DNA from: Candidatus Accumulibacter cognatus
GTDB taxonomy: Bacteria; Pseudomonadota; Gammaproteobacteria; Burkholderiales; Rhodocyclaceae
Length of the DNA: 64,000 nt
Assembly (NCBI GenBank): GCA_013414765.1
Contig: CP058708.1
Span: 4,397,553 to 4,461,552, forward strand
Direction: 5' to 3'
Of this stretch, positions 11,299 through 26,143 are shown in pieces. Both the position numbers and the translations under genes were made by a program. The notes below the pieces were generated by a model. It made no database searches. It was not told the DNA's origin and worked only from the letters and a program-made list of their open reading frames with translations. Position 1 is the stretch's first letter, and each line of letters begins with the position of its first letter.

Positions 11299-11533
11299 GC
11301 GGCCGTGTAGTCAGCAAGGAAGCGAAATGAGTCTGGCAAGGATCATTGTTCTCCAAAATAATGAGCAGCTGGACTCGCCGCCAAGGGTGGCAAAGTGACT
11401 GCAGCGTCGGGCAATGCAGCGGCAGTTTATACGCAAGTGGGCGTGCAGCATAGCCAGAGCATCCGCAATTTTGACCGAATATGGCACCCTCAGCGTAGCG
11501 TCTGGTCATCTTGTGCTAATATTCGCGCCCGAA

Positions 11534-11881
<348 letters not shown>

Positions 11882-11954
11882 TCGCGAAATGAGGCTCATC
11901 TGGTGCACCTTTGTAGTGCGATAATGGCCCCGGCACAAGAACAACAAATGACGA

Positions 11955-13454
11955 ATGATGGCGCAGCAACAGGCGGTTACCGTTGAGCAACTCGAATCCC
12001 ATCTATGGGAGTCCGCCAATATCCTGCGCGGCCCCGTGGACGCAGCCGACTTCAAGACCTACATCTTCCCGCTGCTGTTCTTCAAGCGCATCTGCGATGT
12101 CTGGGACGACGAGTACCAAGAGATCGTCGACGAGACCGGCGACGAGCAACTGGCCTGGTTTCCCGAGTCGCACCGGTTCCAGATCCCCCAGGACTGCCAC
12201 TGGAACGACGTGCGCACCAAGGCCACGAACGTCGGCGCAGCGATTCAGCGGGCCATGCGCGAGATCGAGAAGGCCAACCCCGACACGCTGTACGGCGTGT
12301 TCGGCGATGCGCAGTGGACGAACAAGGAACGCCTGTCCGACGCCCTGCTTAAGGACCTGATCGAGCACTTCTCCAAGCTGCCGCTGGGCAACCACGAAGT
12401 GGGCTCGGATGTGCTGGGTGACGCCTACGAGTACCTGATCAAGAAGTTCGCCGACGCCACCAACAAGAAGGCCGGCGAGTTCTACACGCCGCGCAGCGTG
12501 GTGCGGCTGATGATCGACATGCTCGATCCCAAGGAAGCCGAGACCATCTACGACCCCGCCTGTGGCACCGGCGGCATGTTGCTGGCCGCCGTGCAGCACG
12601 TCAAAGAGATGCACGGCGACGTCAAGCGGCTGTGGGGCAAGCTGTTCGGGCAAGAGAAAAACCTCACCACCTCATCCATCGCGCGAATGAACCTGTTCCT
12701 TCACGGCATCGAGGACTTCCAAATGGTGCGCGGCGACACGCTGCGCAACCCGGCCTTCTTCGACGGCGACCGGCTGGCCACCTTCGACTGCGTGATTGCC
12801 AACCCACCCTTCTCACTGGAGAAGTGGGGCGAGGACCTTTGGATCAACGACCCGTTCGGCCGCAACTTTGCCGGTCTGCCGCCCTCGTCCAGCGGCGACT
12901 TCGCCTGGGTGCAGCACATGGTCAAGTCCATGGCCGACGTGACCGGCCGCATGGCCGTGGTGCTGCCCCAGGGGGCGCTGTTCCGAAAAGGCGTGGAAGG
13001 CAGCATCCGGCAGAAGCTCCTGGAGATGGATCTGGTTGAGGCTGTGGTCGGATTGGCACCCAACCTCTTCTATGGCACTGGCCTGGCTGCGTGCATCCTG
13101 GTCTTGCGCAAGCGCAAGCCGGTCAAGCACAAGAAGAAGGTGCTGATCGCTGATGCGTCACGCCTGTTCCGCCGGGGGCGCGCGCAGAACTATCTGGAGC
13201 CGGAGCACGCCGCCGAGATCCTCGGCTGGTATCGCGGCTTTGCCGATGTGCAGGACGCGGCCCGGGTGGTCAATCTCGACGAGATCAAGGCCGAAGACTG
13301 GACCCTGAACATTTCGCGCTACGTCCTGCCACCGCTGCAAGAGGACATCCCGCCGCTGCCAGACGCGATTGCGGCATTCAAAGAAGCGCTGACCCGCTGC
13401 CGCGAGGCCGAAGAGCGCCTCGCGCAGGTCATGACCGAAGGGGGATGGCTGTAA
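11955..13454 (+). CDS. hsdM: Type I restriction-modification DNA methyltransferase subunit HsdM (first copy)
   Basis: A 499-residue N6-adenine methyltransferase. It has the HsdM N-terminal helical domain (residues 10-150; YIFPLLFFKRICDVWDDEY) and the catalytic domain. Motif I is YDPACGTGGML (about 198-208) and motif IV is ANPPF (about 282). EFYTPRSVVRLM, GQEKNLTTSSIARMNLFLHG and VLPQGALFRKG are classic. It methylates DNA as part of an M2S complex with HsdS. Two ATG codons in a row (11955, 11958) are possible starts. The stop overlaps the next gene (TAATG), which encodes a second, different HsdM. All key residues are present. Confidence 0.95.
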   Translation: MMAQQQAVTVEQLESHLWESANILRGPVDAADFKTYIFPLLFFKRICDVWDDEYQEIVDETGDEQLAWFPESHRFQIPQDCHWNDVRTKATNVGAAIQRAMREIEKANPDTLYGVFGDAQWTNKERLSDALLKDLIEHFSKLPLGNHEVGSDVLGDAYEYLIKKFADATNKKAGEFYTPRSVVRLMIDMLDPKEAETIYDPACGTGGMLLAAVQHVKEMHGDVKRLWGKLFGQEKNLTTSSIARMNLFLHGIEDFQMVRGDTLRNPAFFDGDRLATFDCVIANPPFSLEKWGEDLWINDPFGRNFAGLPPSSSGDFAWVQHMVKSMADVTGRMAVVLPQGALFRKGVEGSIRQKLLEMDLVEAVVGLAPNLFYGTGLAACILVLRKRKPVKHKKKVLIADASRLFRRGRAQNYLEPEHAAEILGWYRGFADVQDAARVVNLDEIKAEDWTLNISRYVLPPLQEDIPPLPDAIAAFKEALTRCREAEERLAQVMTEGGWL

Positions 13455-14971
13455 TGAGTCACCCAAGCAATCGCATCACCCAGCAGGATCTGGAGAGCTA
13501 TCTGTGGGGCGCCGCAGTGCTGCTGCGCGGCTTGATCGACGCCGGCGACTACAAGCAGTTCATCTTCCCGCTGCTGTTCTACAAGCGCGTCTCGGATGTC
13601 TGGGACGAGGAGTACCAGGCGGCGCTGGCCAACTCGGGCGGCGACCTCTCCTACGCGCAGTTTGCCGAGAACCACCGCTTCCAGATCCCCGAGGGCGCGC
13701 ACTGGAACGACGTGCGCCAGACACCGAAGAACGTCGGCGCAGCCATCCAGAAGGCCATGCGCGCGATCGAGACCGCCAACCCGGAGCTGCTCGACGGCAT
13801 CTTCGGCGACGCTCCCTGGACCAACCGCGAGCGCCTGCCCGACGAAACGCTGAAGAACCTGATCGAGCACTTCTCCACCCAGACGCTGTCGGTGGACAAC
13901 GTGCCCGAGGATGAACTCGGCAACGCCTACGAGTACCTGATCAAGAAGTTTGCGGACGACTCCGGCCACACGGCCGCCGAGTTCTACACCAACCGCACCG
14001 TCGTCCACCTGATGACGCAGCTACTGGCACCGCAGGCCGGCGAGTCGATCTACGACCCCACCTGCGGCACCGGCGGCATGCTGATCTCGGCGCTGGATGA
14101 AGTGAAGCGCTCGGCCGGCGAGTACCGCACGCTCAAGCTCTACGGGCAGGAGCGCAACCTCATCACCTCGTCCATCGCCCGCATGAATCTCTTCCTGCAT
14201 GGGGTGGAGGACTTCGAGATCATCCGCGGCGACACCCTGTCCGACCCCAAGCACATCAAGGGCGACCGCCTGCGCCGGTTCGACGTGATCCTGGCCAACC
14301 CTCCGTACTCCATCAAGCAGTGGAACCGCGAGGCGTGGAGCAGCGACAAGTGGGGTCGCAACTCCCTGGGCACGCCGCCGCAGGGCCGCGCCGACTATGC
14401 GTTTCAGCAGCACATCCTGACCAGCCTCACCGCCAAGGGGCGCTGCGCCGTGCTCTGGCCGCATGGCGTGCTTTTCCGCAATGAGGAACAGGCCATGCGC
14501 GCCAAGATGGTCGAGCAGGACTGGGTGGAGGCCGTCATCTGCCTGGGGCCCAACCTGTTCTACAACTCGCCGATGGAGTCGTGCATCGTCATCTGCAACC
14601 GCAAGAAGACGGCTGCACGCAAGGGCAAGGTGATCTTCATCGACGCGGTGAACGAGGTCACCCGCGAGCGGGCACAGAGCTCCCTCACACCTGCGCATCA
14701 GCAGCGTATCCTTGAGGCGTACAAAGCGTTTGCCGACGTGCCCGGTTTTGCCAAGGTCGTCACGCTGGCCGAGATCGGGGCCAACGGGGCCAACCTGTCG
14801 ATTCCGCTGTATGTGAAGCGGGTTGCCACCGCACCGGCAAGCGATAGCAATGGCGAGGCGGTATCGCTGCGCTCTGCCTGGGAGCAGTGGCAGACCGACG
14901 GCCGCGTCTTCTGGCAGCAGATGGATGCGCTGGTGGCAACGCTGGATGGGCTAACGGAAACGAAGTCATGA
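13454..14971 (+). CDS. hsdM: Type I DNA methyltransferase subunit HsdM (second, paralogous copy)
   Basis: A 505-residue paralogue of the preceding gene. N-terminal domain: YIFPLLFYKR-like FIFPLLFYKRVSDVWDEEY. Motif I is YDPTCGTGGML and motif IV is ANPPY. The two proteins are alike over the N-terminal 200 residues but differ in the C-terminal third. Both keep intact catalytic motifs, so neither is an obvious inactive subunit. ATG 13454 overlaps the hsdM1 stop; an in-frame ATG at 13445 is an alternative. The stop overlaps the start of the AlbA/ATPase gene (ATGATG region at 14968). A heteromeric M1M2S enzyme is one possibility; independent partners are another. Confidence 0.95.
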   Translation: MSHPSNRITQQDLESYLWGAAVLLRGLIDAGDYKQFIFPLLFYKRVSDVWDEEYQAALANSGGDLSYAQFAENHRFQIPEGAHWNDVRQTPKNVGAAIQKAMRAIETANPELLDGIFGDAPWTNRERLPDETLKNLIEHFSTQTLSVDNVPEDELGNAYEYLIKKFADDSGHTAAEFYTNRTVVHLMTQLLAPQAGESIYDPTCGTGGMLISALDEVKRSAGEYRTLKLYGQERNLITSSIARMNLFLHGVEDFEIIRGDTLSDPKHIKGDRLRRFDVILANPPYSIKQWNREAWSSDKWGRNSLGTPPQGRADYAFQQHILTSLTAKGRCAVLWPHGVLFRNEEQAMRAKMVEQDWVEAVICLGPNLFYNSPMESCIVICNRKKTAARKGKVIFIDAVNEVTRERAQSSLTPAHQQRILEAYKAFADVPGFAKVVTLAEIGANGANLSIPLYVKRVATAPASDSNGEAVSLRSAWEQWQTDGRVFWQQMDALVATLDGLTETKS

Positions 14972-16848
14972 TGCGTACCGCTGAAGACTTGTTTCAGGAG
15001 CTGTGCTCGCTGGACGAGTCCCATCGAATCGAGGCCAAACAGGCCAGGCGGATTGACCGTTCAGTCATGGAATCCGTCTGCGCGTTTGCCAACGAACCCG
15101 GTTTAGGAGGTGGCTACCTGCTGCTGGGTGTAGTCCGAGACGAACAAGATCTGTTCACAAATGCCTACAAGGTCGAAGGTATTGCTCATCCCGACAAGAT
15201 ACAATCCGACCTTGCCAGTCAATGTGCCAGCGTTTTCAATCGTCCGGTCCGGCCACGTGTGTCTGTCGAGGACTTGAGGGGCAAAACGGTCATTGTGGTT
15301 TATATTGCCGAGGCGGCCCCGACTGAAAAGCCTGTCTACCTCCAGAATCTCGGTTTGCCGAGGGGGGCTTATCGCAGGGTTGGCCCTACCGACCAAGAGG
15401 GCTCTGAAGACGACCTCATCGCACTTTATTCCGGCCACCAGCTTGACACCTTTGACGCAGCCGTCCTGTCGGATGCGGATTTGAGCGACTTCGATCCTGC
15501 GGCCATCAACGACTATCGCCAACAGCGCCGAGCTATCAATCCAGACGCCGAAGAACTGACCTGGCCGGACGAAGATCTGCTGCGCTCTCTGGGAAGCGCC
15601 AAGCGGGAGAACGGAGAACTCAGGCCAACGGTGTCCGGCATCCTGTTATTTGGCACGGGGATGGCTCTGCGGCGCTGCTTTCCGATGACTCGTATCGATT
15701 ACATCCGCGTACCGGGGCGTCAATGGGTTGAAAACCCGGACCACCGCTTTGACACGCTGGAGATTCGTGCCTCCCTTTTTACCGCGATACGCCGAGCCAC
15801 CAATACGGTTCGTGACGAGTTGATCCAATCCTTCTCACTTCCCGAAGGTGCGCTTGCACGAGAAGATGAACCGGTATTGCCCCTTCGGGTCATCCGTGAA
15901 GCCATCGTCAACGCAGTCATGCACCGCAGTTACCGGATCCACGGCACGATCCAGATCATCCGCTATGCCAACCGGCTGGAAATCCGCAATCCCGGACACT
16001 CCATCAAGGATGAGGAGCAATTGGGCGAGCCGGGTTCAGAGACGCGTAATCCGCGGATCGCTGCTGTGCTGCACGAGGTGAACATCGCTGAAACCAAGGG
16101 CAGTGGCATTCGCGCCATGCGCGAACTGATGCTTGCCCATGATCTGCTCCCTCCAACTTTCGAGTCCTCCCGACGGCCCGACCAATTTGTGGCCACCTTC
16201 CTGTTCCATCACTTTCTCGGGCCGGCAGATCTGGCCTGGCTTCGGAGACTGACCAACGAGCAGATCAGCGACGAAGAAGCGCGTGCTCTGGTGTTTGTCC
16301 GCGAGTTGGAAGCCATCGACAACGCTGCATACCGGACGATCAACCGAACCGATACGCTCAACGCCTCCGGACACTTACGCCGACTACGCGACCTGGATCT
16401 CTTGGCGATGAAAGGGGGAGGTAGCCGTACCTACTACGTCCCCGGTTCCCGTTTCTTGGCTAGCCTAGTGCCTCCGGCAACCGATACACACCAGCCACCA
16501 CCTCACAGTCACCAGCTTGACCAGAATAGTCACCAGCTTGATATGGATGGTCACCAGTTGCTGGCGACTGTTCCTGAGTCCTTGCGTAACCGTATCCCGC
16601 CCGCAGGCAGCAAGCCCCGACGCGAAGTCCTTCGGGTCTTGATAGAGGATCTGTGCCGCTGGCGCTCTCTAAGCGCCCGTGAACTGGCGATTATTCTCCG
16701 TGGCCGGGAGCAGAAGCCCCTTGTTCGTGATTACCTGACCCCCATGGTCGAAGAAGGTGTGTTGGCATACACCATTCCGGCAATGGCAAAGCACCCGGAT
16801 CAACACTATACCGTTCCAGACTTGGTACCAGAGGCCGAGCGTGGCTGA
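14968..16848 (+). CDS. AlbA_2 / GHKL-ATPase protein of the type I locus
   Basis: A 626-residue protein of the group called ATP-binding protein or putative transcriptional regulator (Schlafen AlbA_2 family). The N-terminal AlbA_2 domain (about 10-150) contains RIEAKQARRIDRSVMESVCAFAN and GGYLLLGVV. A HATPase_c_4 domain (about 300-420) has AIVNAVMHRSYRI, RLEIRNPG and NPRIAAVL...ETKGSGIRAMRE. A C-terminal winged-helix part follows. Such genes are frequent between hsdM and hsdS/hsdR. Their role is not settled, though regulation is often suggested. The linker contains three copies of a 7-residue unit with SHQLD. The gene overlaps hsdM upstream and hsdS downstream, so it is part of the operon. Confidence 0.85.
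   Translation: MMRTAEDLFQELCSLDESHRIEAKQARRIDRSVMESVCAFANEPGLGGGYLLLGVVRDEQDLFTNAYKVEGIAHPDKIQSDLASQCASVFNRPVRPRVSVEDLRGKTVIVVYIAEAAPTEKPVYLQNLGLPRGAYRRVGPTDQEGSEDDLIALYSGHQLDTFDAAVLSDADLSDFDPAAINDYRQQRRAINPDAEELTWPDEDLLRSLGSAKRENGELRPTVSGILLFGTGMALRRCFPMTRIDYIRVPGRQWVENPDHRFDTLEIRASLFTAIRRATNTVRDELIQSFSLPEGALAREDEPVLPLRVIREAIVNAVMHRSYRIHGTIQIIRYANRLEIRNPGHSIKDEEQLGEPGSETRNPRIAAVLHEVNIAETKGSGIRAMRELMLAHDLLPPTFESSRRPDQFVATFLFHHFLGPADLAWLRRLTNEQISDEEARALVFVRELEAIDNAAYRTINRTDTLNASGHLRRLRDLDLLAMKGGGSRTYYVPGSRFLASLVPPATDTHQPPPHSHQLDQNSHQLDMDGHQLLATVPESLRNRIPPAGSKPRREVLRVLIEDLCRWRSLSARELAIILRGREQKPLVRDYLTPMVEEGVLAYTIPAMAKHPDQHYTVPDLVPEAERG
16507..16569 (+). repeat. Three 21-bp in-frame tandem units in the AlbA/ATPase gene
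   Basis: Units begin at 16507, 16528 and 16549, each starting (A/G)GTCACCAG and encoding (S/G)HQL plus three further residues. Unit length is a multiple of three, so gain or loss of copies changes linker length without shifting the frame. The third unit has diverged. Confidence 0.7.
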
Positions 16849-18031
16849 GAAGCAACTGAAACCCGGCTGGCAGATCTGGCGCTTCGATCAGATGGCGACC
16901 AACGTCAACGTGCGCGTCGACAACCCGTCCGAGTCAGGGATGGAGCACTACGTCGGCCTCGAACACCTCGATCCCGACTCCCTGAAAATTCGCCGCTGGG
17001 GTACGCCGAATGATGTAGAAGCCACCAAGCTGATGTTCAAGAAGGGCGACATCATTTTTGGTCGCCGCCGTGCCTACCAGCGAAAGCTCGGTGTGGCCGA
17101 GTTCGACGGGATTTGCTCAGCCCATGCGATGGTGCTGCGGGCCAAGCCTGACATCGTGCTGCCCGAGTTTCTTCCGTTCTTCATGCAGAGTGATCTGTTT
17201 ATGAATCGGGCGGTGGAGATTTCGGTGGGGTCACTTTCGCCGACGATCAACTGGAAAACGATGGCTGTGCAGCAATTTGCATTGCCGCCGAAGGTTGAGC
17301 AGCAGCGCATACTGGAAGGGCTCAAGTCGTCCTATGACCTTGTAGAGTCTTTTCAAGATCTAATTTTTGCATGTGAGCAGTTGTGGAAGTCAAGGACAAC
17401 GGACTTGTTTGCCACTGGAACCAGAGTGGAGAAGGTGCAACTCGGAGACCTAGTTGATTATTCGTCTGATGGTCCATTCGGAAGCAAGCTAAAGACCGAG
17501 CATTACTCTGACCAAGGCGCTCGTGTCATTCGATTGAACAACATTGATCCGCTCGAATTTAACAATGCCGACTCAGCATTTGTTCCGCTGGAATACTTCC
17601 GTGAACTGCATGGCTATGAGGTGAAAGGCGGGGACGTCATCATTGCAGGGCTAGGCGATGATCGAATCCCCATGGGGCGTGCTTGCATCGTTCCCTTGGA
17701 AATTGGAGCGGCAATAAACAAGGCGGATTGCTACTGCCTCCGAACCAGCGAGAAGTTATCGGCTAGGTACCTAATTCATTTTCTGAACAGTAATGAAGGT
17801 TTGAAGCAGGCACGCTCGATGGCGCAAGGCACCACGCGAAAACGATTGAACCTCTCAAATATCAGGCGTTTTGGCATACCGTTCCGATCATTGGCTGAAC
17901 AGGATGAAATTGCGGAAGAGCTTGATTCATATCTGTCGGCCAAAAAGAAAGCAGTAGCCCGATTGGAATCGTCACTCGTAGTTCGCGATCAGATGCGTGA
18001 ATCAGCGTTCGCGGGGGTGGCACATGTTTAA
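16841..18031 (+). CDS. hsdS: Type I restriction-modification specificity subunit HsdS
   Basis: A 396-residue specificity subunit that recognises the bipartite DNA target. A GTG at 16841, overlapping the previous gene by 8 bases, gives the start (MAEKQLKPGWQIWRF). Two target-recognition halves are seen. The first (about 1-190) ends with SVGSLSPTINWKTMAVQQFALPP, then a helical spacer EQQRILEGLKSSYDLVESFQDL. The second (about 205-380) ends with TTRKRLNLSNIRRFGIPFRSLAEQDEIAEEL. Length is normal. AT content rises in the second half, typical of recombining recognition domains. The last 8 bases overlap hsdR. Confidence 0.92.
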   Translation: MAEKQLKPGWQIWRFDQMATNVNVRVDNPSESGMEHYVGLEHLDPDSLKIRRWGTPNDVEATKLMFKKGDIIFGRRRAYQRKLGVAEFDGICSAHAMVLRAKPDIVLPEFLPFFMQSDLFMNRAVEISVGSLSPTINWKTMAVQQFALPPKVEQQRILEGLKSSYDLVESFQDLIFACEQLWKSRTTDLFATGTRVEKVQLGDLVDYSSDGPFGSKLKTEHYSDQGARVIRLNNIDPLEFNNADSAFVPLEYFRELHGYEVKGGDVIIAGLGDDRIPMGRACIVPLEIGAAINKADCYCLRTSEKLSARYLIHFLNSNEGLKQARSMAQGTTRKRLNLSNIRRFGIPFRSLAEQDEIAEELDSYLSAKKKAVARLESSLVVRDQMRESAFAGVAHV

Positions 18032-19174
18032 CGAATCCAACACTGTCGAAGCCTACGTTCGTGACCTGCTCGCAGGACCGATCAAAGCTGTACCGGCCAA
18101 CACTATCCAGGAACCGCTCGCCAGCTATGGTCCGAGCCCTAAGGGCATCGGCTGGCGCTACGCAGTCCCCGCCGAGGTACCGCGCCAGATCCAGGAGGTG
18201 ATGGTCGAGCCCTGGTTGCGCGATGCGCTGATCCGCCTGAACCCCGAGATCGCCGCCGATCCTGACCTTGCCGACCAGGTGCTCTACAAGCTTCGCGCCA
18301 TCGTGCTGTCGGTGCGCTCGGATGGCCTGATCCGCGCCAACGAGGAGATGACCGCCTGGATGCGTGGCGAGCGCTCCATGCCCTTCGGCACCAACAACGA
18401 GCATGTGCCGGTGCGGCTGATCGACCTGGACGACCCGAAGCAGAACCAGTACATCGTCACCCAACAGTTCATCTACCGCGCAGGGCCCACCGAGCGGCGG
18501 GCTGATCTGGTGCTGCTGGTCAACGGTCTGCCGCTGGTGCTGATCGAGGCCAAGACACCGGTCAAGAAGTGCATCAGCTGGGTGGATGGTGCGGTGCAGG
18601 TGCACGATGACTACGAGAAGTTCGTGCCTGAGCTCTTCGTGTGCAACGTGTTCTCGGTGGCCACCGAGGGCAAGGCCTACCACTACGGGTCGATCGGCCT
18701 GCCAGTCAAGGACTGGGGGCCTTGGCACCTGGACGGCGGCGATGCGCAGCACCACCCGCTGAAGTCTCTCAGGCTCTCGGCCGAAAGCATGCTGCGCCCG
18801 CATGTGGTGCTGGACATCCTCGGCAGCTTCACCCTGTTCGCCACGGACAAGAAGAAGCGCCGCATCAAGATCATCTGCCGCTACCAGCAGTACGAGGCGG
18901 CCAACAAGATCGTCGAGCGGGTGCTGGCGGGTCACCCGAGGAAGGGCTTGATCTGGCACTTCCAGGGCTCGGGCAAGTCGCTGCTGATGGTGTTCGCCGC
19001 GCAGAAGCTGCGCATGCATGCTGGCCTGAAGAACCCCACGGTGCTGATCGTGGTAGACCGGATCGACCTCGACAGCCAGATCACCGGCACCTTCACTAGC
19101 AGCCTGTCGGACTTTACCCTTGCCGCCCGCTGAATATGCTACAATCATAGCTGTTCCAGGAACGGAGGTCCGGC

Positions 19175-20533
19175 ATGTCCCATTTCATCGTCACCGATCG
19201 CAAGACCGACTACCTGCTGCCGCCGTCACTCGACGATTGGTTGAACGAGGATCATTTGGCGCGATTCATTGTGGAGGTGATCGACTCGCTTGATTTGTCG
19301 AAGCTGACGCGGCAGTACGCTGGACGGGGATCGAAGGCGTACCATCCGGCGACGCTGCTGGCCATTCTGGTCTATGGCTACGCGACGGGTATTTTCTCCA
19401 GCCGCAGGCTGGAGCAGGCGACCTACGATTCGGTCGCCTTTCGCTACATTGCCGCCGGCAGCCATCCCGATCACGACAGCCTGGCGACGTTCCGCCGGCG
19501 TTTTCTGGAGGAACTGAGCGACTTGTTCGTGCAGGTTCTGGAGATGGCCCGGGAGATGAAGCTGCTCAAACTGGGCAATGTCTGTCTTGACGGCACGAAG
19601 ATTCAGGCCAACGCCTCCCGCCACCGTGCGCTTTCGCACGGCCACATCGAAAAGCTGGAAGCGCCACTCAAGGCGGAGGTGCAGGAACTGTTCGCGCTGG
19701 CCGAACAGGCGGATCAGGCGGAGGTTCCGGACGGCGTCAGCCTGCCGGAAGAAATCAAGCGCCGCGAAGATCGGCTGGTGGCGATGGCGGCGGCCAAGGC
19801 GAAGATTGCGGCGCGGGCCGAGGAGCGCGATCAGCGAGAGAAGGCGCAGTACGACGAGAAGAGGGCGCGGCGCAAGGCGAAAGAAGAAGAGACCGGCAGG
19901 AAGTGGGGGGGCAGAGTGCCCAAAGCCCCCGAGCCCGGCGTACGGGACAGTGACCAGATCAATCTGACCGACGAAGAATCGCGCATCATGCCGGTGGCCG
20001 GTGGCGGCTTCGAGCAGGCGTACAACGCCCAGGCGGCGGTTGATCCCGCGACCCTGCTGGTGGTGGCGGTCGGCGTGACGCAAGCCCCCAACGACAAGGA
20101 GCAGGTCGAGCCGATGCTGGCGACGCTCCAGGCGCAGGCCGATGGGCTGGGTTCCGTGCACGGGATGATCGCCGACACGGGCTTCTACAGCGAGAAGAAC
20201 ATCAAGGCGTGCGAGGCGGCCGGCATCGTCCCCTTGATCGCGGTGGCGCGCGACGAGCACCATCCTGACTGGCGGGAGCGGCATAGCGAACCGGCCGCGC
20301 TACCGGAGCATGCGACACCCGTGCAGGCCATGTCGCATCGTTTGAAGACCAGAGCGGGGCGAGCGCTCTATGCGTTGCGCAAGCAGACCGTCGAGCCGGT
20401 CTTCGGCATCATCAAGTCGGTCATGGGCTTTCGCCAGTTTTCCTTGCGGGGTTGGCAGAAGGTCACCGGGGAATGGACGCTGGTCTGCCTGGCGTGGAAT
20501 TTGAAGCGCATGGCCAAGTTGCGCCCGCAGTAG
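19175..20533 (+). CDS. IS1182-family transposase
   Basis: A 452-residue DDE transposase. The N-terminal DUF772 domain shows YHPATLLAILVYGYATGIFSSRRLE and SHPDHDSLATFRRRF, followed by CLDGTKIQANASRHRALSH. A charged coiled-coil insert lies at about 180-245. The C-terminal DDE part has AYNAQAAVD, ADTGFYSEKN and KQTVEPVFGIIKSVMGFRQFSLRG. A good ribosome binding site (GGAACGGAGG) precedes ATG 19175. It moves its own element. No frameshift is seen. Confidence 0.95.
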   Translation: MSHFIVTDRKTDYLLPPSLDDWLNEDHLARFIVEVIDSLDLSKLTRQYAGRGSKAYHPATLLAILVYGYATGIFSSRRLEQATYDSVAFRYIAAGSHPDHDSLATFRRRFLEELSDLFVQVLEMAREMKLLKLGNVCLDGTKIQANASRHRALSHGHIEKLEAPLKAEVQELFALAEQADQAEVPDGVSLPEEIKRREDRLVAMAAAKAKIAARAEERDQREKAQYDEKRARRKAKEEETGRKWGGRVPKAPEPGVRDSDQINLTDEESRIMPVAGGGFEQAYNAQAAVDPATLLVVAVGVTQAPNDKEQVEPMLATLQAQADGLGSVHGMIADTGFYSEKNIKACEAAGIVPLIAVARDEHHPDWRERHSEPAALPEHATPVQAMSHRLKTRAGRALYALRKQTVEPVFGIIKSVMGFRQFSLRGWQKVTGEWTLVCLAWNLKRMAKLRPQ

Positions 20534-20555
20534 AGAAAAACGAGGAAAAAACCTC

Positions 20556-20591
20556 AAAAAGGCCGGAAAATCGACAAATTCCGGCCTTTTT
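20556..20591 (+). terminator. Terminator hairpin inside the IS
   Basis: AAAAAGGCCGGAA pairs with TTCCGGCCTTTTT around a 10-base loop, 22 bases after the transposase stop. The symmetric A and T tracts would let it work in both directions, isolating hsdR's 3' part from IS transcription. Confidence 0.85.
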
Positions 20592-22613
20592 CATGCCGAA
20601 AAGTAAAATTTGTCGGTTTCCCGGGCTCCAAGTCCGACAGGCTGCTAGGGCGGACATACCCAACCTGGAGAAGGCCGACAGCAGGGAGAAGCTGCAGCAG
20701 TTGCTGGCGCAGGATGTGCGCAAGATCATCATCACGACAATCTTCAAGTTCGGCGAGGCCAGCGGGGCGCTGAACACGCGCAGCAACATCATCGCGCTGG
20801 TGGACGAGGCCCACCGCACGCAAGAAGGCGACCTGGGCCGCAAGATGCGCGAGGCCCTGCCCAACGCATTCTTGTTCGGCCTGACAGGCACGCCGATCAA
20901 CCGGGCCGACCGCAATACCTTCTACGCCTTCGGTGCCGACGAGGACGAGAAGGGCTACATGAGCCGCTACGGCTTCGAGGAGTCGATCCGCGACGGTGCC
21001 ACGCTGAAGCTGCACTTCGAGCCCCGGCTGATCGACCTGCACATCGACAAGGCTGCGCTGGACGCCGCCTACAAGGACCTGACAGGGGGCCTGTCGGACC
21101 TGGACAAGGACAACCTCGCCAAGACCGCCGCCAAGATGGCCGTGCTGGTCAAGACGCCCGAGCGCATCCGCAAGGTGTGCGAGGACATCGTCGAGCATTT
21201 CCAGACCAAGGTGGAGCCCAACGGCTTCAAGGGCCAGATCGTCACCTTCGACCGCGAGTCGTGCCTGCTGTTCAAGGCCGAGCTGGACAAGCTGCTGCCG
21301 CCCGAGGCCACGGACATCGTGATGTCGGTGCAGGCATCCGACAAGAAGGACCACCCGGAGTACGCGAAGTACGACCGCACACGTGACGAAGAGGAGCGGC
21401 TGCTGGACCGCTTCCGCGCGCCCGAAGACCCGCTGAAGCTGATCATCGTTACGGCCAAGCTGCTGACGGGCTTCGACGCGCCCATCCTGCAAGTGATGTA
21501 CCTGGACAAGCCATTGCGGGACCACACGCTGCTGCAGGCCATCTGCCGTGTGAACCGCACTTACTCCGAGCAGAAGACCCACGGCCTGATCGTGGACTAC
21601 CTCGGCATCTTCGACGATGTGGCGGCGGCGCTGGAGTTCGACGACCAGAGCGTCAAGCAGGTGGTCAGCAACATCCAGGAGCTGAAGGACAAGCTGCCCG
21701 AAGCGATGCAGAAGTGCCTGGCCTTCTTTGCCGGCTGCGATCGCAGCTTGCAGGGGTACGAGGGCCTGATCGCCGCGCAGCAGTGCCTGCCCAACAACGA
21801 GGTGCGAGACAACTTCGCTGGCGAGTACAGCGTGCTCAACAAGATCTGGGAGGCACTGTCACCGGATGGTGTTCTTGGCCCCTTCGAGAAGGACTACAAG
21901 TGGCTGTCGCAGGTGTACCAGTCGGTGCAGCCGTCCAGCGGCCACGGCAAGCTGATCTGGCATTCCCTGGGCGCCAAGACGATCGAGCTGATCCACCAGA
22001 ACGTGCATGTTGACGCCGTGCGGGACGATCTCGACACACTGATACTGGACGCCGATCTCCTGGAGGCCGTGCTCTCGAACCCCGACCCGAAGAAGGCCAA
22101 GGAGATCGAGATCAAGCTCAAGCGCCGGCTGCGCGGGCACGGCGGCAACCCCAAGTTCAAGAAGCTGTCGGAACGGCTCGATGCGCTGAAGGAGCGCTTC
22201 GAGTCCGGACAGATCAACAGCGTCGAGTTTCTGAAGCAGCTGCTGGAGATCGCCAGGGAAACCGTGCAAGCCGAGAAGGAAGTGCCGCCCGAAGAGGAGG
22301 AGGACCGTGGCAAGGCGGCCCTGACCGAACTGTTCAACGAAGTCAGGACGGCCAGTACGCCGATCATCGTCGAACGTGTGGTCGCCGACATCGACGAAAT
22401 CGTGCGGCTGGTCCGCTTCCCCGGCTGGCAGGGAACGCAGGCGGGCGAGCGTGAGGTCAGGAAGGCACTCAGGAAGTCGCTCTTCAAATACAAGCTGCAT
22501 GCCGACGAGGAATTGTTCGATAAGGCATTCGGCTACATCCGGCAGTACTACTGATCGGAGGTGCCGTGGAAATACAGTCACATCCTGGTTGGTTATACAT
22601 TTCGAATAATAGA

Positions 22614-23171
22614 ATGAACAATTTATTAGTGACTATTGCTCTCGTGTTACTTGCCACAACCGCTCACGCCCAATACCGATGCGTGGAAAACGGGCGGACT
22701 ACCCTGACTGATCGCCCATGCGCTTCAGAGCAGGGACAAAGCAACCCGCAGCCCCAAGGCAAACCAAACAACGTCATTGGTGAAGTTACCAATTCTGCTT
22801 ATGCGACGACGACGGGTGGTTGGCGAGGCCAAGCACAATATCAAGCCAATGTGGGAGGAACGATTGCGCAGGAGGCACACGCGGTCGTTCAGATGATCAT
22901 AGAAATTGATCCACAGGGCAAAATACTCGGATCGAGCCCTGAAAACGGCTGCAAACTCAAGGGACTGGCTACGCCAGGGGTGATTTCCACCATCGCAAAC
23001 CTTGACGTGACATTTTACGAATGTGCGTATACAGGCTTCAATCGCCGGATGTCTGGGACACTGAGCATTAATTCAGCTCAGAAGCATGCTCAGCTTACAC
23101 TGAATGCAATCTCGGTTGGGCTGGGCAAAGTCGCGGGAACGTTTGACATCCGTGCCACCTTGCGCCGGTAA
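22614..23171 (+). CDS. Secreted DUF4124-type protein
   Basis: A 185-residue protein. The ATG at 22614 gives a clean signal peptide (MNNLLVTIALVLLATTAHAQ). Directly after it comes YRCVENGRTTLTDRPC, the DUF4124 pattern found in many proteobacterial envelope proteins. The rest is not recognised. It follows hsdR by 60 bases, but its lower GC and different style suggest an island passenger rather than part of the restriction system. Function unknown. Confidence 0.7.
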   Translation: MNNLLVTIALVLLATTAHAQYRCVENGRTTLTDRPCASEQGQSNPQPQGKPNNVIGEVTNSAYATTTGGWRGQAQYQANVGGTIAQEAHAVVQMIIEIDPQGKILGSSPENGCKLKGLATPGVISTIANLDVTFYECAYTGFNRRMSGTLSINSAQKHAQLTLNAISVGLGKVAGTFDIRATLRR

Positions 23172-23224
23172 CTGGCACAAGTGGCTTATAGGAAAGCAGT
23201 CGTCATGGTAGACGGTGATTAGTG

Positions 23225-24097
23225 ATGGCAAGAAGAAATACCAGCATTATTGATGACTTGTTTGGAATCGCTGCGATGCTGCCGTGGTGGGTAGGAAGTA
23301 CTCTGGCCGTCGTCGCCTATGTAGTTCTACACAGGTATGCGTCCGCGGATGTACCGACCAATGTTTCTCCTGGGCAGGTTGGGCAAATGGTCTTCGGTCA
23401 GATGACCAAGGTGCTAGCCTTCTACGGTCAGTTCATTATCCCTCTACTGCTATTGGCCGGCGCAGCCGCATCCTTCTTCGGACGACGCAAACGTGAAGGC
23501 CTCGTACGCGATGCTGGTGGCGACAGGTCCGGTGCGACCCTGCGTGCACTGAGTTGGAAGGACTTCGAGTTGCTTGTCGGCGAAGCCTTCCGAATGCGTG
23601 GCTTTTCGGTGGTTGAAACTGGCGGAGGTGGTTACGATGGCGGTATTGACCTCCAATTGAAGAAAGGCAGCGAAGTCTTTCTCGTGCAATGCAAGCAGTG
23701 GCGCGCCTACAAGGTGTCGGTCAATGTGGTGCGTGAATTGTTCGGCGTGATGGCATCGCAGGGCGCGACCGGAGGATTTGTTGTCACCTCGGGCACATTC
23801 AGTGCCGATGCGCGCTCTTTCGTGGAAGGGAAGAACATTGAGTTAATCGATGGCTCAGCGCTCCAGGGCATGATTGAAAGGGTCAGTTGCGCCCAACCGG
23901 AGATGATGTCCGTCCGTGGAGTTTCAAACAGGGCAGAGCCACATCTACAGACCACCGCGCTGGTAATGGAGCCAACTTGCCCACGTTGCGGTAGCGCCAT
24001 GGCCAAGCGCATTGCCAAACAGGGGTCGAAGGCAGGAGGTGCGTTTTGGGGATGTACTGCGTTCCCGAAGTGCCGTGGTGTCAGGGCAATCGAGTAG
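23225..24097 (+). CDS. Membrane-anchored Mrr-like restriction endonuclease with C-terminal zinc finger
   Basis: A 290-residue protein. Two N-terminal membrane segments (about 16-35 and 60-80) are followed by an Mrr_cat PD-(D/E)xK domain (about 105-215). Its core reads GGGGYDGGIDLQ...FLVQCKQWR, giving the catalytic D and the QxK pair. A C-terminal topoisomerase-type zinc finger (CPRCGSAMAKR...GGAFWGCTAFPKC) follows. Mrr-like enzymes cut methylated or foreign DNA. GTG at 23222 is an alternative start one codon earlier. Located in the type I restriction island, it is probably part of a defence cluster; membrane-anchored Mrr proteins with zinc ribbons are known but their exact job is not. Confidence 0.82.
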   Translation: MARRNTSIIDDLFGIAAMLPWWVGSTLAVVAYVVLHRYASADVPTNVSPGQVGQMVFGQMTKVLAFYGQFIIPLLLLAGAAASFFGRRKREGLVRDAGGDRSGATLRALSWKDFELLVGEAFRMRGFSVVETGGGGYDGGIDLQLKKGSEVFLVQCKQWRAYKVSVNVVRELFGVMASQGATGGFVVTSGTFSADARSFVEGKNIELIDGSALQGMIERVSCAQPEMMSVRGVSNRAEPHLQTTALVMEPTCPRCGSAMAKRIAKQGSKAGGAFWGCTAFPKCRGVRAIE

Positions 24098-24218
24098 CGT
24101 GTGCTTCCGGGACAACGGACAGGCACCACATCCTTACCGAAGAGCCAACTCTGTCAGTGTCCGTTGTCAGGAGAGGGCAGGGAGAAACACTGAGGAACTA
24201 TGCAACACCTCGTTCCCC

Positions 24219-24614
24219 CTATCGATCACCACCCACCCCAAACCGCACCCCCTGTCCCTCCCACTCCACCGGAAACGGCAGCATCAGATCCGTCAACGTC
24301 AGCGAAGCCGGCTGCTTCCCCGCCAGGATCGCCTCGACGATGTCCGGCGCCAGCAGCGCCAATCGCACTACCCGACTCACGAACGACGCATTGATCTGCT
24401 CCGCCCTGGCGATGTCTTCCAGGCAGGCATATGTCCCGTTCTCCAGCAGCTTTTGCCAGCGAAAAGCCCGGGCAATCGCCTTGATCACCGTGTTGTCGAT
24501 CGTGGCCATCGGCATCGGGTTGCCCTGCGTGCCATCCGGCAGTACGATCACCTTGCGACCACCCCGCTTCCTGAAGGTCATGGGCAGATCGACAGAAATC
24601 ACTTCCGCCATCAC
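24219..24614 (-). CDS. Small protein paired with serine recombinase
   Basis: A 131-residue frame whose ATG overlaps the recombinase stop in ATGA. The middle (ACLEDIARAEQINASFVSRVVRLALLAPDIVEAIL) looks like a helix-turn-helix. Such small genes regularly follow large serine recombinases in proteobacterial islands and may aid recombination or regulate it; this is a contextual inference. The frame is intact even though its partner is broken. Confidence 0.65.
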   Translation of the reverse strand: MMAEVISVDLPMTFRKRGGRKVIVLPDGTQGNPMPMATIDNTVIKAIARAFRWQKLLENGTYACLEDIARAEQINASFVSRVVRLALLAPDIVEAILAGKQPASLTLTDLMLPFPVEWEGQGVRFGVGGDR

Positions 24615-25880
24615 GCCACCTTCCTTGCTGGCATCACCGACTGGATCAGTTCCTTCATCCCCGCCGTCTTCATGTCGATGCGCAAACCCGTCTGGCTGAC
24701 CGTCACCTGCTCCACCAGCAACTGAATAATCCGCGCCTGCTCAGCGGGGAAGAGTTCATCCCAGACTGGCTCGATGGACTGCAGCATCGTGATGACCTGC
24801 TGTGCGTCTGCTGCCGGATCAAGCGCCACCACCTCGCGAATGGCCTGCGACATCACCTCGGGCGCCTGCAGCACCTTCCTCACCTGCGCGATCACCGCCG
24901 CCTCGATCTCACCGGCCGGCACGCGCGTCACTGAGCACGCCTCCTTGCCGATCTTCATAGACGCCGTATTCACATAGTAGCGATACACCTTGTCGCCCTT
25001 GTGCGTCGCGCCCGGCGTCATCGCCCAGCCATCGTCAGCGAAGATCAAGCCTTTCAGCAGGGCAGGGGCACGCGATGGCCGATTCTGCCGAGCCCGTTCT
25101 TCCGGCTCCCAACGCCCCAGTATCGCCTGCACCTCGTCCCACACCGCCCGGTCCAGAATCGCCTCGTGCTCGCCGGCGAAATGCTGACCCTTGTACGCAG
25201 CAACGCCGATGAAGACCGGATTCTTGAAGAGCCTGTACAGATGCCCTTGTCGATCGGTGTTCCAGCAAGGGTCTTGTCCTTGAGCGTCGTCCAGGACTTC
25301 GTCGTCACGCCCTCGGCGCGCAGTTCCCGGCACAGTGCGGTCATCGAGCCGAGCGCGATGTAGTACCCAACAACCGCCTGACCAGCGCCGCCTCGTTCGG
25401 ATTGGGCACCAGTTTTCGATCGACGACATCGTAGCCCAACGGCGGCATGCCACCCATCCAGATCCCCTTCGCCCGACTGGCGGCGATCTTGTCTCGCACG
25501 CGTTCCCCGCCAAGCTCCCGCTCGAACTGCGCTAACGACAAGAGGATGTTCAAGGTCAGCCGTCCCATCGACGTGGTGGTGTTGAATTGCTGCGTGACCG
25601 AGAAACGAAGGTCACTTTCTGGGCGTCGAAGAGTTCGACGAGTTTCGCGAAATCCGCCAGCGATCGCGACAGGCGGTCGATCTTGTAGACCACGATCACA
25701 TCGACCAGCCCCTCGCGCACATCGTCCAGCAGGCGCTGCTCGCCCGGCCGGTTGAGCGTGCCCCCGGAGAATCCGCCATCGTTGTAAGCATCCGGCAGCG
25801 CCACCCAGCCTTCCGATTTTTGCGAAGCGATGTACGCTTCGCAGGCATCACGCTGCGCATCGAGCAAATTGTAGTTCTGC
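24611..25880 (-). pseudogene. Large serine recombinase, truncated and frameshifted
   Basis: Several reverse-strand frames together spell a large serine recombinase: YNLLDAQRDACEAYIASQ, DAYNDGGFSGG, VYKIDRLSRSLADFAKLVELF, then after a shift near 25590 GRLTLNILLSLAQFERE and GMPPLGYDVVDRKL. Further shifts lie near 25360 and 25250. The recombinase zinc-beta-ribbon part follows (KNPVFIGVAAYKGQ, HEAILDRAVWDEVQAIL). The N terminus with the catalytic serine is missing: at 25880 the sequence passes straight into the right copy of the flanking repeat. At least three frameshifts plus the missing start make it dead. Confidence 0.88.
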
Positions 25881-26143
25881 TCCGCCAGGAAACCGGCTGC
25901 AAACGCTCTGCCGCCAATACGAACACCCCGCTTAACACCTTGTTTTACGTGTATTTCGTTTATGGCTCCTGACTTCACTCACCTCACAAATGTCATATCC
26001 GGGCTCTTAAAGGCCAAATCTCTCGCAACCTCCTGACTTCGGGATTCTGGTACGGATTTTTCAAGTGATTGTTTTCGCTTTTGAATTATTGGTGATAGGT
26101 GGATTTCGCGTTGGCGTGTGCTTTGGTTTCGTGGGGTACGCCA
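25880..26143. repeat. Right copy of ~265-bp direct repeat bounding the island
   Basis: Begins CTCCGCCAGGA, identical to the tRNA-Ser 3' end plus flank, and continues in parallel with 11616-11881 at about 80 percent identity to GGTTTCGTGGGGTACGCC. The terminator hairpin of the left copy is degraded here. The segment 26144-26299 beyond it has no recognised gene. Confidence 0.8.

Follow-up and report, generated by a model that had tools for sequence, protein, structure and literature searches.

A probable PacII-class type I restriction-modification operon with two distinct HsdM subunits, Schlafen cargo and an insertion-split hsdR in Candidatus Accumulibacter cognatus

Why should a single type I restriction-modification (RM) operon encode two different HsdM methylase subunits? 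The question is raised by a locus in Candidatus Accumulibacter cognatus, which we analysed in a 64,000-nt stretch of contig CP058708.1 (assembly GCA_013414765.1), referred to below as the window. The original prediction for this locus described two adjacent, apparently active HsdM proteins, which would either join one HsdS in a heteromeric complex or pair each with a different HsdS, and an AlbA/ATPase gene that might regulate the choice. Our results indicate that the operon is very probably a non-canonical type I RM system of the PacII class, with an M1M2S methyltransferase, a split hsdR that most likely leaves the system with methylation only, and a Schlafen gene carried as accessory cargo. 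The two-HsdM arrangement is already known in kind and is not new.

The operon is an overlapping string of hsdM1, hsdM2, a Schlafen/GHKL gene, hsdS and hsdR, and the first four frames contain no internal stops:

11955-13454, + strand: HsdM1, 499 amino acids (aa), predicted N6-methyladenine (m6A) subunit with NPPF and AGEF (Pfam N6_Mtase/HsdM_N)
13454-14971, + strand: HsdM2, 505 aa, predicted N4-methylcytosine (m4C) subunit with NPPY and AAEF (Pfam N6_Mtase/HsdM_N)
14968-16848, + strand: Schlafen AlbA_2, HATPase_c_4 (GHKL) and winged-helix protein at the M2-S junction, 626 aa (Pfam)
16841-18031, + strand: HsdS, GTG start, 396 aa, with two target recognition domains, TRD1 and TRD2 (Pfam Methylase_S)
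18024-19095, + strand: 5' part of hsdR, ATG start, with the HSDR_N nuclease domain and the start of the SWI2/SNF2 motor (Pfam)
20650-22554, + strand: 3' part of hsdR, with the remaining motor and the C-terminal region (TIGR00348 positions 326-666; SWI2_SNF2 positions 76-219)

The hsdM1 and hsdM2 frames overlap by one base (TAATG); an in-frame ATG at 13445 is another possible start for hsdM2, giving 508 aa and a ten-base overlap. The frames and the Pfam matches bear out the earlier description of two adjacent, different HsdM proteins. Both contain CGTGGML as motif I, and motif IV is NPPF in HsdM1 (12801-12812) and NPPY in HsdM2 (14297-14308). The N6_Mtase scores are 329 bits for HsdM1 and 304 bits for HsdM2, and both proteins also pass HsdM_N. 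The gene string originally placed at 11955-18031 is intact within that interval, but the end at 18031 omits hsdR, a gene that begins at 18024 and is broken by an insertion sequence (IS). A canonical type I system with a single HsdM was excluded, as two distinct HsdM are encoded: the operon resembles EcoKI and EcoR124I in its HsdM, HsdS and HsdR domains and in its predicted trimeric methyltransferase, but where those systems use one HsdM twice, it has two different ones.

Comparison with solved structures assigned the two HsdM proteins, which share 49% identity, to different subunits. The best match of HsdM1 was 7vru_A (586.9 bits, against 465.3 bits for 7vru_B), that of HsdM2 was 7vru_B (611.8 bits, against 468.2 bits for 7vru_A), and HsdS matched 7vru_C (222 bits). 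From chain lengths, motifs and the published description, we take 7vru to be the PacII M1M2S structure, with chains A and B as M1 and M2. The chain lengths, motifs and contact residues of 7vru agree with those of PacII M1, M2 and S as published (PMC9613975).

A search with the M2 protein as the query gave at least 583 relatives, of which the best 80 were retained; these have about 68% identity or more and are thus biased to close kin. A tree was built from 67 M1 and 80 M2 proteins of adequate length, the pair of the window and four further HsdM of the same genome. M1 (68 rows with the window) and M2 (81 rows with the window) each formed a pure clade, with support of 0.984 and 0.995, respectively. 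With the window rows counted, NPPF was found in 68/68 M1 rows and NPPY in 81/81 M2 rows; AGEF was present in 68/68 M1 rows, and AAEF in 76/81 M2 rows, the other five containing AQEF. The original prediction had raised a recent tandem duplication as one explanation that would undo it, and an hsdM duplicated into redundant copies would fit the adjacency and homology of the two genes. The tree rules it out: M1 and M2 lie in separate clades that differ in motif IV in every row, and M1 and M2 of the window, at 49% identity, are further apart than any relative is from the window protein of its own clade (68% or more, rounded), so that the probability of a recent duplication is close to nil.

The gene order was also conserved. 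M1 lies directly upstream of M2 (gap of at most 680 bp) in 75/80 relatives, and the pattern is therefore not due to chance. Four of the five misses are contigs that begin at or near M2 (L014, L025, L043 and L078, of which L014 retains the end of M1), and in the fifth, L058 (8492-11521), M1 and M2 occupy one 1010-aa frame, either a natural fusion or a sequencing error; the assembly is from a metagenome and contains an unreadable residue. An hsdS follows M2 in 73/80 relatives, the remaining seven ending early or showing no hsdS in view, and in the 73 a single hsdS lies between M2 and hsdR (as two frames in L069). The order M1-M2-(cargo)-S-R is thus conserved, and a Schlafen (AlbA) gene occupies only 15/73 M2-S junctions. 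The alternative that the two HsdM use different HsdS and act as two separate m6A methyltransferases would be in keeping with the other type I systems of this genome, which have their own hsdM. It is very improbable, since there is one hsdS here and one in each of the 73 relatives, M1 and M2 occur together and in order in 75/80 loci, and M2 of PacII by itself does not bind S (PMC9613975); we found nothing that supports this part of the original prediction.

Two same-genus loci coincide with sampled relatives, L142 with L063 in length and gene positions and L143 with L019 in a Gabija gene pair at 100% identity, and they are therefore not independent. In L034, L039 and L088, related proteins of about 204-227 aa fill the M1-M2 gap; by eye, they show likeness to a helix-turn-helix (HTH) domain and a GIY-YIG nuclease.

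Type I systems of the non-canonical m6A/m4C class were reportedly first described by Morgan and colleagues in 2016. In this class, an M1 subunit (NPPF, m6A) and an M2 subunit (NPPY, m4C) join S in an M1M2S heterotrimer (PMC9613975, where the class is attributed to previous work). In TRD1 of PacII, which recognizes the CCC half-site, R75, R76 and H94 touch the bases and Y78, Q79 and K81 touch the backbone (PMC9613975). The corresponding segment of the window HsdS is as follows:

17066-17125, + strand: TRD1 DNA-contact segment, RR.YQ.K...H, with the equivalents of PacII R75, R76, Y78, Q79, K81 and H94

All six PacII contacts (6/6) are kept in the window. At these positions, the 73 relatives contain RRYQKD (42), RRYQKH (21, the type of the window), RRYLKT (9) or RRW-KH (1, L058). 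At 60% identity, TRD1 fell into three groups (n = 74, window included) and TRD2 into 40 groups (n = 70, four being excluded as too short), and TRD2 of the window remained ungrouped even at 40% identity. These alignments suggest that the relatives sampled have few recognition types on the cytosine side and many on the adenine side, and that the CCC-type cytosine half would be read with M2 and the adenine half with M1.

The heteromeric M1-M2-S complex of the original prediction, with its half-sites read by different methylases, is therefore supported, as it matches the published PacII class (PMC9613975). Like PacII, the operon encodes M1 (NPPF, AGEF), M2 (NPPY, AAEF), S with a CCC-type TRD1, and a type I HsdR. 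It differs from PacII in an arginine of M1 (see below), in its Schlafen cargo between M2 and S and its IS-split hsdR, and in its TRD2, which is dissimilar, so that the adenine half-site is probably different from that of PacII. We infer that HsdM1, HsdM2 and one HsdS would form an asymmetric M1M2S heterotrimer, in which TRD1 would present a cytosine to M2 for methylation to m4C and TRD2 would present an adenine on the opposite strand to M1 for methylation to m6A. HsdR would make M1M2S a nuclease, and here it is split by an insertion of the IS1182 family:

19096-20648, + strand: IS1182-family element inside hsdR, with 19-nt perfect terminal inverted repeats and CTAG at both borders
19175-20533, + strand: IS1182-family transposase (NF033551, 374.8 bits, cut-off 270)

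The insertion lies within the motor domain, with Pfam SWI2_SNF2 positions 1-72 before the IS and 76-219 after it, and the 5' frame of hsdR stops inside the IS, at 19133. CTAG borders were found in 10/10 IS copies read. The same genome has at least 24 copies at 99-100% identity, that of the window included (40 of 106 candidates scored), as well as four diverged full-length copies and fragments, indicating that the element is strongly expanded in this genome. Downstream of the transposase gene, an inverted repeat of 13 nt with T residues at its end (20556-20591) looks terminator-like; a terminator pattern scan omitted it on the + strand because its loop is over the limit of the scan. Among the 69 relatives in which hsdR was seen, one open frame crosses the insertion point of the window in 68, of which L014 and L056 then leave the contig, and L069 is the sole exception. 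Six further hsdR matches in the same genome all lie at other loci. Since hsdR is split, the system is most likely methylation-only, restriction probably having been lost and methylation kept. The earlier wording "apparently active" fits the two methylases but does not extend to restriction.

Several observations weigh against the PacII-class assignment or limit it. As a published trend, M2 subunits strongly conserve R29 whereas M1 subunits do not, and an equivalent arginine occurs in about 80% of classical HsdM (PMC9613975). In an alignment with HsdM1, 7vru_A has a threonine at this position, but the arginine was present in all 68 M1 rows (ILRG), window included, and it is also kept in HsdM2 of the window. 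Because the M1 rows have this arginine too, the asymmetry of PacII, with its asymmetric pocket blocking, may not carry over in detail to this clade. Furthermore, M2 of PacII is able to methylate adenine too (PMC9613975), and NPPY is therefore no proof of m4C. The conservation described above was measured on close kin, as the sample comprised the best 80 matches. A scan of 11500-12100 gave no sigma-70-like promoter. Finally, complementation of the split HsdR is conceivable, even if the other hsdR matches lie elsewhere.

The gene at the M2-S junction encodes a protein with a Schlafen AlbA_2 domain (Pfam), a GHKL ATPase domain (PF13749, HATPase_c_4, 63.6 bits, cut-off 26) and winged-helix-like folds in its C-terminal half; its N-terminal domain resembles 2kyy and Schlafen N-domains. 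The PrrC/RloC-type anticodon nuclease family was absent from its two Pfam matches and its three PADLOC matches, the latter being prokaryotic Argonaute (pAgo) systems. The closest copies, 83% and 79% identical, occur in two other genomes of the family, one of them lying in a different type I operon, flanked by hsdS and hsdR, and the other belonging to an operon with GmrSD and an N6_N4 methylase. A copy with 52% identity lies between a single hsdM and hsdS in the same genome; two stop codons were flagged in the search match, yet a 633-aa open frame spans the place. According to PMC12839542, Schlafen-kinase-winged-HTH proteins are among the backup suicidal effectors of BREX. The window protein resembles those effectors in combining a Schlafen core, a GHKL-type ATPase and a winged helix in one protein, but it resides in a type I operon and its RNase activity is presumed. 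It would be an accessory effector in an exchange junction, most likely a backup RNase against phage.

The M2-S junction was examined in the 73 relatives with hsdS in view and was empty in 36 and loaded in 37. The cargo comprised Schlafen (15/73), Gabija, HTH-peptidase, Fic, a helicase and three unclassified cases; the S-R junction was closed in the relatives sampled. In L019, L036, L038, L039, L043, L066 and L074, a pair of Gabija genes separates hsdM2 from hsdS, and L049 has a Gabija pair downstream of hsdM2 with no hsdS in view. A 109-aa protein and an HTH-M78 peptidase protein recur together at this junction in L024, L040, L051, L054, L056, L063, L080, L083 and others; in a scan of L040, the former had no Pfam match and the latter matched the PD-Lambda-2_B profile (115.6 bits). 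On the M2 tree, the cargo required at least 29 changes, whereas 100 shuffles gave 37.6 on average and never fewer than 35 (76 labelled rows in 7 states, with five unlabelled rows excluded), indicating that cargo is partly inherited and much exchanged. L016 (Schlafen) and L010 (empty) have M2 proteins that are 98.4% identical, and M2 of the window is 93-94% identical to those of systems without cargo, with a Schlafen protein of 47% identity, and with Gabija. In a control set of nine single-HsdM loci, eight also had other genes between their hsd genes (RhuM in seven, genes weakly similar to Gabija and Schlafen in one) and the ninth had only a gap, so cargo between hsd genes is not unique to the two-HsdM class. 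Two single-HsdM type I loci of the genome itself were also seen: L131 has a Schlafen-GHKL gene between M and S, and L132 has RhuM between M and S and an IS copy before hsdR.

These data bear on the role of the Schlafen gene, which had been suggested to regulate the choice between methylases. Winged-helix-like folds in its C-terminal half would suit a transcriptional regulator of the operon or a chooser between methylases. That role is improbable, as near-identical systems such as L010 lack the gene, a Schlafen gene occupies only 15/73 junctions while 36 are empty, and the 52% identical copy adjoins a single hsdM. Less improbable, though still unlikely, is a PrrC-like guard that stays silent with an intact methyltransferase and is released when a phage inhibitor binds. 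Its position between M2 and S recalls prrC inside a type IC operon (PMC3874165 and PMC12707154), the BREX effectors provide a precedent for backup suicidal proteins of this architecture, and PacII is bound by Ocr and ArdA (PMC9613975); however, 58/73 relatives have no Schlafen gene in the slot, the same protein family occurs in other defence operons, and the gene is intact here although HsdR is split. Given that it is intact despite the split, any control is unlikely to need an intact HsdR. The most likely role of the Schlafen gene is that of exchangeable cargo rather than of a methylase selector.

Further defence modules inside hsd operons are known from other bacteria: PrrC is embedded in the EcoprrI type I operon (PMC3874165), DarTG2 lies between hsdS and hsdR in enteropathogenic Escherichia coli (EPEC) (PMC12255303), and TgvAB in Vibrio VPI-2 is a defence module within an hsd operon (PMC11411939). 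The operons studied here resemble all three in carrying such a module and differ from the DarTG2 case in that, in the relatives sampled, the slot is M2-S and S-R is closed. A reading in which the M2-S junction serves specifically for the exchange of complete second defence systems, with S-R kept closed and the cargo coupled to M1M2S as a guard, is improbable.

The operon lies within a block of about 14 kb that extends from the 3' end of a tRNA-Ser gene to a second copy of the left-border sequence (11534-26143):

11534-11623, + strand: tRNA-Ser (CGA), its 3' end being the left border of the block (ARAGORN)
22566-23171, + strand: DUF4124 protein (Pfam, 23.8 bits, cut-off 22)
23222-24097, + strand: Mrr-like (type IV) endonuclease with a topoisomerase-type zinc ribbon (Pfam Mrr_cat, 108 bits)
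24611-25513, - strand: partial large serine recombinase (Pfam Recombinase and zinc-ribbon domains, 25.5 and 33.5 bits)
25880-26143, + strand: second copy of the left-border sequence of about 265 bp, probable right border (84% identical to 11616-11881 by self-comparison)

The block is probably a tRNA-associated island. DNA identity with a same-genus operon, L141 (537-15237), starts inside the 3' end of tRNA-Ser, which is GCT in L141; the matching pieces (89-91% identical) run on over M1, M2, part of S and hsdR. L141 has the same operon without Schlafen cargo, an uninterrupted hsdR and, at the far side, a longer putative serine recombinase frame. With the M2 query (E up to 1e-100), matches were found in 3/25 same-genus genomes, this one included, and in 5/41 genomes, one of which (G220) matched at just 53%, an M1-like level. 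We infer that the operon was acquired horizontally. Among 60 loci scanned, a transfer-messenger RNA (tmRNA, L029), a tRNA-Cys (L068) and a tRNA-Leu (L072) precede the hsdM1 frame by at most about 350 bp, a placement that parallels that of tRNA-Ser in the window.

For the biology of these systems, two HsdM in one type I operon would reflect a known division of labour, with one base type per subunit, and no curiosity of this genome. A usable point is that the recognition domain of the cytosine side comes in very few types among the relatives sampled, the adenine side being highly variable. At the M2-S junction, entire defence systems (for instance Gabija and Schlafen-GHKL proteins) are exchanged, and this copy probably turned methylation-only through an insertion sequence. 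If the cargo were indeed coupled to M1M2S as a guard, the loss of HsdR would have left an asymmetric epigenetic marker together with a Schlafen alarm, and this natural experiment would point to a guard that depends on M1M2S but not on HsdR.

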